Position numbers and translations under genes: made by a program | NCBI RefSeq assembly: GCF_000017565.1 | Contig: NC_009719.1 | Coordinates: forward strand, 1,674,001-1,738,000 | Reading direction: 5' to 3' | DNA length: 64,000 nt | DNA from: Parvibaculum lavamentivorans DS-1 | GTDB taxonomy: Bacteria; Pseudomonadota; Alphaproteobacteria; Parvibaculales; Parvibaculaceae | Notes under the pieces: generated by a model | What the model saw: the letters and a program-made list of their open reading frames with translations, nothing else | Database searches by the model: none | Told to the model about the DNA's origin: nothing | Shown here: positions 20,541 to 21,195 of the stretch, in pieces | Numbering within the stretch: position 1 is the stretch's first letter | Layout: each line of letters opens with the position of its first letter

Positions 20541-20610
20541 GTTTCCCTCTCCCCTCGGGGAGAGGGAGGGAGCGGCCTAAAGGCCGCGGAAGGGTGAGGG
20601 GGAGCCGCAA
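20541..20610. repeat. Left inverted copy of a repeat bracketing the DUF559 gene
   Basis: The block contains CCCTCTCCCCTCGGGGAGAGGG (split: 20545-20566), then GGGAGCGGCC..., GGAAGGGTGAGGGGGAGCCG and CAA. The same elements occur in reverse orientation at 20982-21047 on the far side of the DUF559 gene. It also encodes the first residues of that ORF. Confidence 0.7.
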
Positions 20611-20965
20611 ATTGAAGCGCCAGAATATTCCCCGCGCCCGCCAGCTGCGTGTCGACGCGACAGACGCCGAAGCCCGCCTCTGGCTGCACCTCCGCAATCG
20701 CATGCTGGGCGGCTTCAGGTTCCGCCGACAGTTCTCCGTCGGCCCCTATATCGCCGATTTTGTCTGCGCCGAACGCAAGTTGATCGTCGAACTCGATGGA
20801 AGTCAGCATGCGGACAATCCTGCCGATGAACGCCGCACGCGTTTTCTTGAGTTGCGCGGCTACCGCGTCATCCGCTTCTGGAATCCCGACGTGCTCGCGA
20901 ATACGGAAGGCGTGCTTGAGATGATCCTCCTCGAACTGCAGAAGGCCCCTCACCCTTCCCGTTGA
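20594..20965 (+). CDS. DUF559 domain protein (Vsr/REase-like fold)
   Basis: 123-aa protein of the DUF559 family, whose fold is related to very-short-patch-repair and restriction endonucleases. Visible family features: ARQLRVDATDAEARLWLHLR, the core FRRQFSVGPYIADFVCAERKLIVELDGSQH (acidic and Q-x-H catalytic-type residues; quoted in two blocks of the family pattern), and GYRVIRFWNPDVLANTEGV. The GTG at 20594 lies inside the left repeat copy; TTG 20612 is an alternative. The last residues (KAPHPSR) come from repeat-like DNA. No methyltransferase partner is nearby. Nuclease activity is not shown for the family as a whole. Confidence 0.85.
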   Translation: MRGSRKLKRQNIPRARQLRVDATDAEARLWLHLRNRMLGGFRFRRQFSVGPYIADFVCAERKLIVELDGSQHADNPADERRTRFLELRGYRVIRFWNPDVLANTEGVLEMILLELQKAPHPSR

Positions 20966-21195
20966 CCCGGCTCCGCCATCCTTGCGGCTCCCCCTCACCC
21001 TTCCGCCGTCTGACGACGGCTCCCTCCCTCTCCCCGAGGGGAGAGGGTAAGAAAAGGCGACGAACGTCTCCCTCTCCCCTTGGGGAGAGGGGTGAGAGGC
21101 ATCTTGGAAAAGGTCCGGTGGACCTTTTCTAGCCTCGAACGCCCGCCGAAGGCGGGAAGGGTGAGGGGGAGCGGCAACCGCCACCCTCACCCCCT
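20942..21195. repeat. Cluster of GC-rich palindromic repeats downstream of DUF559
   Basis: Contains the right inverted copy (20982-21047: TTGCGGCTCCCCCTCACCC ... CTCCCCGAGGGGAGAGGG split), and a further partial copy at about 21066-21190 with CCCTCTCCCCTTGGGGAGAG, a CCGAAGGCGGG hairpin and GAAAAGGTCC-GGTGGACCTTTTC (about 21107-21129). CCTCACCC and its complement GGGTGAGG recur at least five times in and around the block. No coding sense is evident except the end of DUF559. Confidence 0.7.

Follow-up and report, generated by a model that had tools for sequence, protein, structure and literature searches.

The window analysed here is a 64,000-nt stretch of the genome of Parvibaculum lavamentivorans DS-1 (NC_009719.1, nt 1674001 – 1738000; genome G000), and positions at the locus are counted from its first nucleotide. 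An intact DUF559 gene lies between two arms (nt 20542 – 20610 and 20982 – 21050), 371 nt apart, which are inverted repeats of 69 nt with 88% complementarity. The bracketing of this ORF by inverted repeats, as given in a preliminary description, is thereby confirmed, while a third repeat unit (nt 21070 – 21168) was absent from that description. The features of the locus are as follows.

20542 – 20604, + strand: left repeat unit (palindrome, inner hairpin and tail); two hairpins by folding, z -3.2
20545 – 20566: palindrome of the left unit, CCCTCTCCCCTCGGGGAGAGGG
20572 – 20587: inner hairpin of the left unit, GCGGCC-TAAA-GGCCGC
20588 – 20601: tail of the left unit, GGAAGGGTGAGGGG
20612 – 20965, + strand: DUF559 nuclease gene (PF04480 profile; conserved D49, E60, D62, H66, D72 and R75)
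20946 – 20959, - strand: further tail copy inside the DUF559 gene, encoding a C-terminal part of the protein (PHPSR)
20991 – 21047, - strand: right repeat unit, inverted (from repeat comparison, shuffles and folding); tail 20991 – 21004, inner hairpin GCCGTC/GACGGC 21005 – 21020, palindrome 21026 – 21047
21070 – 21168, + strand: third unit, with a longer spacer; palindrome 21070 – 21091, hairpins, and tail GGGAAGGGTGAGGGG ending at 21168

The units share one plan, in which a palindrome is followed by a short inner hairpin and then by a tail, GGGTGAGGGG. Inner hairpins vary in sequence and keep their pairing (GCGGCC/GGCCGC, GCCGTC/GACGGC and others), and folding of the unit strands gives two hairpins with z about -3. 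The core palindrome, CCCTCTCCCCNNGGGGAGAGGG, has three copies in the window (nt 20545, 21026 and 21070) and appeared in none of 100 shuffles with up to 3 mismatches allowed. With up to 2 mismatches allowed, the 3.91-Mb genome contains it just 12 times, three of these copies flanking the DUF559 gene. The right and third units form a head-to-head pair, similar to the gene-less pairs found elsewhere (compare locus L070). A hairpin inside the third unit, GAAAAGGTCCGGTGGACCTTTTC (nt 21107 – 21130), recurs in long spacers near other units in the same genus.

The gene probably starts with TTG at nt 20612, directly after the repeat tail, a position at which the orthologue L028 has ATG; GTG at nt 20594 is a possible alternative. 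To judge from its sequence, the GAGGGGGAG of the tail could act as the ribosome-binding site of the gene, which ends at nt 20965, past the further tail copy. Only one other DUF559 gene is present in G000. It has an internal TAG, and inverted palindromes enclose it as well; they are of another type (CCACCCTCCCC..GGGGAGGGT) that is scattered over dozens of places in this genome.

The DUF559 protein

The encoded protein scores 134.8 bits against PF04480 (cut-off 20.6), which places it in the DUF559 family, and residues D49, E60, D62 and H66 are invariant across 34–37 homologues. The structure model (pLDDT 86.9) has a nuclease fold, matching the DUF559 structure 3hrl, the homing endonuclease I-Bth0305I (3r3p) and Vsr (1vsr, 1cw0). 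Among nucleases of known activity the EDxHD enzyme I-Bth0305I is the closest by fold (catalytic domain against the model, Foldseek E 3e-4, TM 0.61/0.71) and by profile (E 4e-4). The DUF559 gene, too, could be one that spreads by cutting. I-Bth0305I, however, is long, has several domains and dimerises on its target of about 60 bp (PMC3943268), whereas the DUF559 protein is a single domain of about 117 aa accompanied by dispersed repeats. The Vsr mismatch endonuclease has a related fold, but its profile, TIGR00632, gives the window protein only 15.8 bits against a cut-off of 97.85. Modelling predicts a small nuclease of the PD-(D/E)XK/EDxHD fold. Values of dN/dS are 0.06–0.25 in the four pairs computed, a sign of purifying selection, and the protein is therefore selected for function. 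A defence system was considered and set aside, there being no convincing PADLOC match. In phages only four relatives were found, all weak. Several mitoribosomal proteins of Toxoplasma and Tetrahymena also match the DUF559 fold; they are probably RAP-type domains.

Flanking repeats across genomes

DUF559 loci were taken from relatives, from 80 named genomes and from a phylum sample, the last two sets making up 107 loci. Inverted repeats between the 300 bp to the left and the 300 bp to the right of each gene were scored, and the best one was compared with a threshold of at least 18. Of the 107 loci, 84 reached it, vs 2 among 606 control windows drawn from these loci (Fisher p = 6e-85 with loci treated as independent, which they are not fully). 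About one fifth of loci have no repeat shared between the flanks, some having repeats on one side only, and many carry several units. In 45 of 107 cases (about 1 expected) no right flank matched the left flank of a locus better than its own, and in 74 its own was among the top five. In the relatives, 34 of 46 loci exceed the 95th percentile of controls. The effect is seen in alpha-, beta- and gammaproteobacteria, Desulfobacterales and Syntrophales; in Deinococcus and cyanobacteria, a handful of plasmid loci, but not all of those read, are flanked by repeats of other sequence. The preliminary description would have been refuted by DUF559 loci lacking such repeats, but the association is far above chance and spans many genera.

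The gene itself is patchy, being found in 32 of 61 relatives and in 46 of the 150 genomes of the phylum sample (about one third, at a search threshold that counts weak matches). The same hpa gene cluster holds a repeat-flanked DUF559 gene in three Deinococcus plasmids (L267, L268, L269), at a different point in each. One complete 3.4-Mb genome (G047) has 10 DUF559 matches, one of them weak, and 70 type-A palindromes (repeat types are described below).

The repeats are dispersed, mostly intergenic and GC-rich, and are found as single units and as inverted pairs. Hairpins of an ordinary kind, resembling terminators or attenuators and accumulated by replication slippage or recombination, could look much the same, with the link to DUF559 a coincidence of GC-rich intergenic sequence, and pairs do flank unrelated genes as well: in G000, two complete type-B pairs lie on either side of a NUDIX-like gene, identified by eye (G000:C1:970696-971606). 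This explanation is contradicted by the counts at loci and controls given above, and we consider it extremely improbable. Because flanks match within loci and repeat types map onto DUF559 clades, base composition cannot be the source; a base-composition artefact was rejected by the control windows and the flank matching.

Repeat types A–D were assigned from the flanking DNA alone, using our own regular expressions, and mapped on the DUF559 tree. Among the relatives, the four types fall in four clades with three changes, the minimum, whereas shuffled labels gave a mean of 18.2 and were as low in 0 of 200 trials. Support is fair to good for clades B, C and D and weak for A. Two or more DUF559 clades are present in each of G000, G001, G004, G005, G009, G015, G016, G017, G022 and G023. 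Shared ancestry of the hosts does not account for the pattern, as many of them have two or three clades and a separate repeat type for each. Type-B repeats are more numerous in genomes with a type-B DUF559 gene (14–135 vs 0–44, p = 1e-4); for type A, counted with a loose pattern, the two are only weakly correlated (p = 0.02). Repeats can also be numerous in genomes that lack DUF559, such as G003, with 43 type-A pattern matches.

Individual sites differ between genomes. After map, the DUF559 gene lies between type-A units in G000, G005 and G023. It is absent from G025, which has a single unit, and from G021, which has a gene-less pair; G024 and G004 have nothing at the site. Gene-less type-B pairs occupy the same site in G002, G012 and G016 (G016 read from L071). 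A nearby GST site is occupied in G001 and G009 and empty in G023, G016, G012 and G002. In the genus of G121, the element is present at one site in seven genomes and lacking in four, with flanks of 88–95% identity, and gene-less pairs are polymorphic too. Empty sites, one of the signs to look for in a mobile unit, were found at the map site, at the GST site and in the genus of G121. Clean target duplications, the other such sign, were not seen: comparison of occupied with empty sites in this densely sampled genus and in E. coli revealed neither a clean duplication nor a clean junction, the flanks being alignable and the intergenic junctions too diverged.

The majority of repeats are solo units or pairs without a gene. 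For this reason, and because many loci are one-sided or multi-unit, no duplication was seen and no transposase accompanies the gene, a simple transposon with terminal inverted repeats is not supported; a classic transposon with target duplication drew no support from the comparison of sites, with its diverged junctions. The earlier notion of a small mobile unit, or of a gene spreading with its repeats, therefore stands in part: the repeat association, the agreement of repeat type with clade and the polymorphism of the gene favour it, and the simple terminal-inverted-repeat transposon is not supported. Its central idea is largely supported and right in direction, the system being wider than a local mobile unit. 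At locus L035, a whole gene-less repeat pair of about 150 bp, unique spacer included, is present in two direct copies with the DUF559 gene between them, an arrangement reminiscent of a circle inserted by recombination into a pair already in place.

The same distribution bears on whether DUF559 is instead a housekeeping or repair enzyme, similar to Vsr, that deals with breaks or mismatches at repeats, the copies at the gene being autoregulatory sites and not parts of a spreading unit. The Vsr-like fold would agree with such a role, as would the ability of the repeat tail to supply a ribosome-binding site and the tie to DNA damage of a Caulobacter DUF559 protein, VsrA, on which the SOS response of methylase-deficient cells depends (PMC12907096). 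The patchy occurrence among relatives, the different sites in congeners and the empty sites argue against it, as do paralogues that each have their own repeat type, and autoregulation would not need inverted repeats on both sides. On balance we regard a repair role as unlikely.

Triplex-type repeats and E. coli ycjD

The tail of a unit mirrors the 3' arm of the palindrome and is not a direct copy of it (82 vs 16 asymmetric units, p = 4e-12). Compact units were used for this count; a mirror test that took every palindrome in both orientations had given a noisy result (133 vs 92). An A of the arm is faced by A or T in the tail, and a G by G; read from the sequence, this is the pairing code of a reverse-Hoogsteen intrastrand triplex. 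With a pyrimidine head, a purine arm and a third purine stretch mirroring the arm, the units agree in sequence with the intrastrand triplex motif (TM), which Holder et al. 2015 (PMC4666352) found abundant in over 260 genomes (for earlier work see Hoyne et al. 2000, as cited in PMC4666352). These authors linked TMs to local genome variability by a mechanism they called 'unclear', proposed replication-linked instability, and reported no link to mobile elements or gene functions. TMs and the present repeats belong to the same sequence class (CCCTCTCCC..GGGAGAGGG..GGGTGAGGG), are intergenic, form inverted pairs and vary between strains, and the repeat next to ycjD is itself one of the E. coli TMs. 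The TM report differs in naming no enzyme or DUF559, and the terms DUF, Vsr, nuclease and ycjD are absent from its main text. In the open-access literature searched, no prior report of a DUF559–repeat pairing was found.

In MG1655, ycjD is a DUF559 gene, and TM no. 9 of the 23 copies in Table 1 of Holder et al. lies 168 bp downstream of its stop codon. By reading of the sequence, a decayed second DUF559 C-terminus is present between the two. In strain A287 (L232), the 3' end of ycjD runs into an inverted TM. This TM is complete there, whereas K-12 and R1 have lost part of it. Precise excision at an E. coli TM (SW071611) was considered and rejected, the event being a microhomology deletion (CCTTGGGGA). 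The full ycjD locus occurs in 3333 of 5426 genomes, and where ycjD is absent eefRABCD is found at the site (PMC12817139). Sampled genomes with ycjD have a mean of 4.3 TM places (39 genomes) vs 1.8 in those without (21 genomes; p = 1e-9), a correlation that tracks deep lineages in E. coli and is weak evidence. Upstream of ycjD (L232, L231), a perfect palindrome of 18 bp, CACCTCATTCTGACAAGA-n7-TCTTGTCAGAATGAGGTG, extends to the start codon; it is unrelated to the TM.

A candidate nuclease for the repeats

The arrangement resembles the REP/REPIN-RAYT systems, in which short dispersed palindromes, solo or in inverted pairs, co-evolve with a cognate single-gene enzyme encoded between its own repeats, and the co-segregation of DUF559 clade with repeat type is a trait of the same kind. 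RAYTs, however, are HUH/Y1 transposases with GTAG-tagged repeats (PMC3733652), whereas DUF559 is a PD-(D/E)XK-type nuclease whose repeats have a triplex-type mirror tail; no GTAG tag was seen by inspection at the repeat ends of the units read. The resemblance raises the question of whether another enzyme (a RAYT, IS200/605 or other transposase acting in trans) moves the repeats, with DUF559 as cargo. The repeats are indeed REP-like in size and dispersal, and Y1 transposases are present in E. coli and Caulobacter, which served as the search control. Yet a search for Y1/RAYT proteins (PF01797) gave no match in G000 or in 26 of 27 members of the genus (one had a match), where repeats are abundant, and a passenger would not be expected to be tracked by repeat type. 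These results weaken the cargo explanation to the point where we think it quite improbable; a RAYT as mover was rejected, none having been found in G000.

The reading we favour, and consider reasonably probable, is that DUF559 is the cognate nuclease of dispersed palindrome and mirror-tail (TM) repeats, in a REP/RAYT-like partnership with an unrelated enzyme. In its favour are the association with repeats, the matched flanks, the agreement of clade and repeat type, the mirror code of the tails, the polymorphic sites, the selection on the protein and its fold, as well as the part of VsrA in the Caulobacter SOS response. Against it stand the genomes rich in repeats but lacking DUF559, the loci whose flanks share no repeat, the weak type-A correlation, the lineage effect in E. 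coli and the lack of a clean target duplication or junction. We infer that the protein would bind and cut the repeats. Each DUF559 would target the matching repeat type, which it would nick or cut. The repeat is probably recognised in a structured form that replication exposes: a folded single strand, a cruciform or a hairpin-triplex. Repair of the break, with template switching, might then copy the repeat unit or unit pair to new sites, and where the gene lies between units it would move too. Whether this extends to a new cross-phylum class of repeat systems, selfish or domesticated, in which structure-specific DUF559 nucleases recognise their cognate intrastrand-triplex repeats and propagate them, is, in our judgement, evenly balanced.

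The results connect two orphans that are both common: an uncharacterised nuclease family and triplex-type repeats reported to destabilise genomes. If the proposed partnership is correct, DUF559 would be the first enzyme assigned to TM repeats and would explain their instability. YcjD of E. coli would be a ready laboratory model, the presence of ycjD in K-12 allowing a direct test. It would also mean that REP-like repeat partnerships have evolved with an enzyme unrelated to the RAYT transposases.
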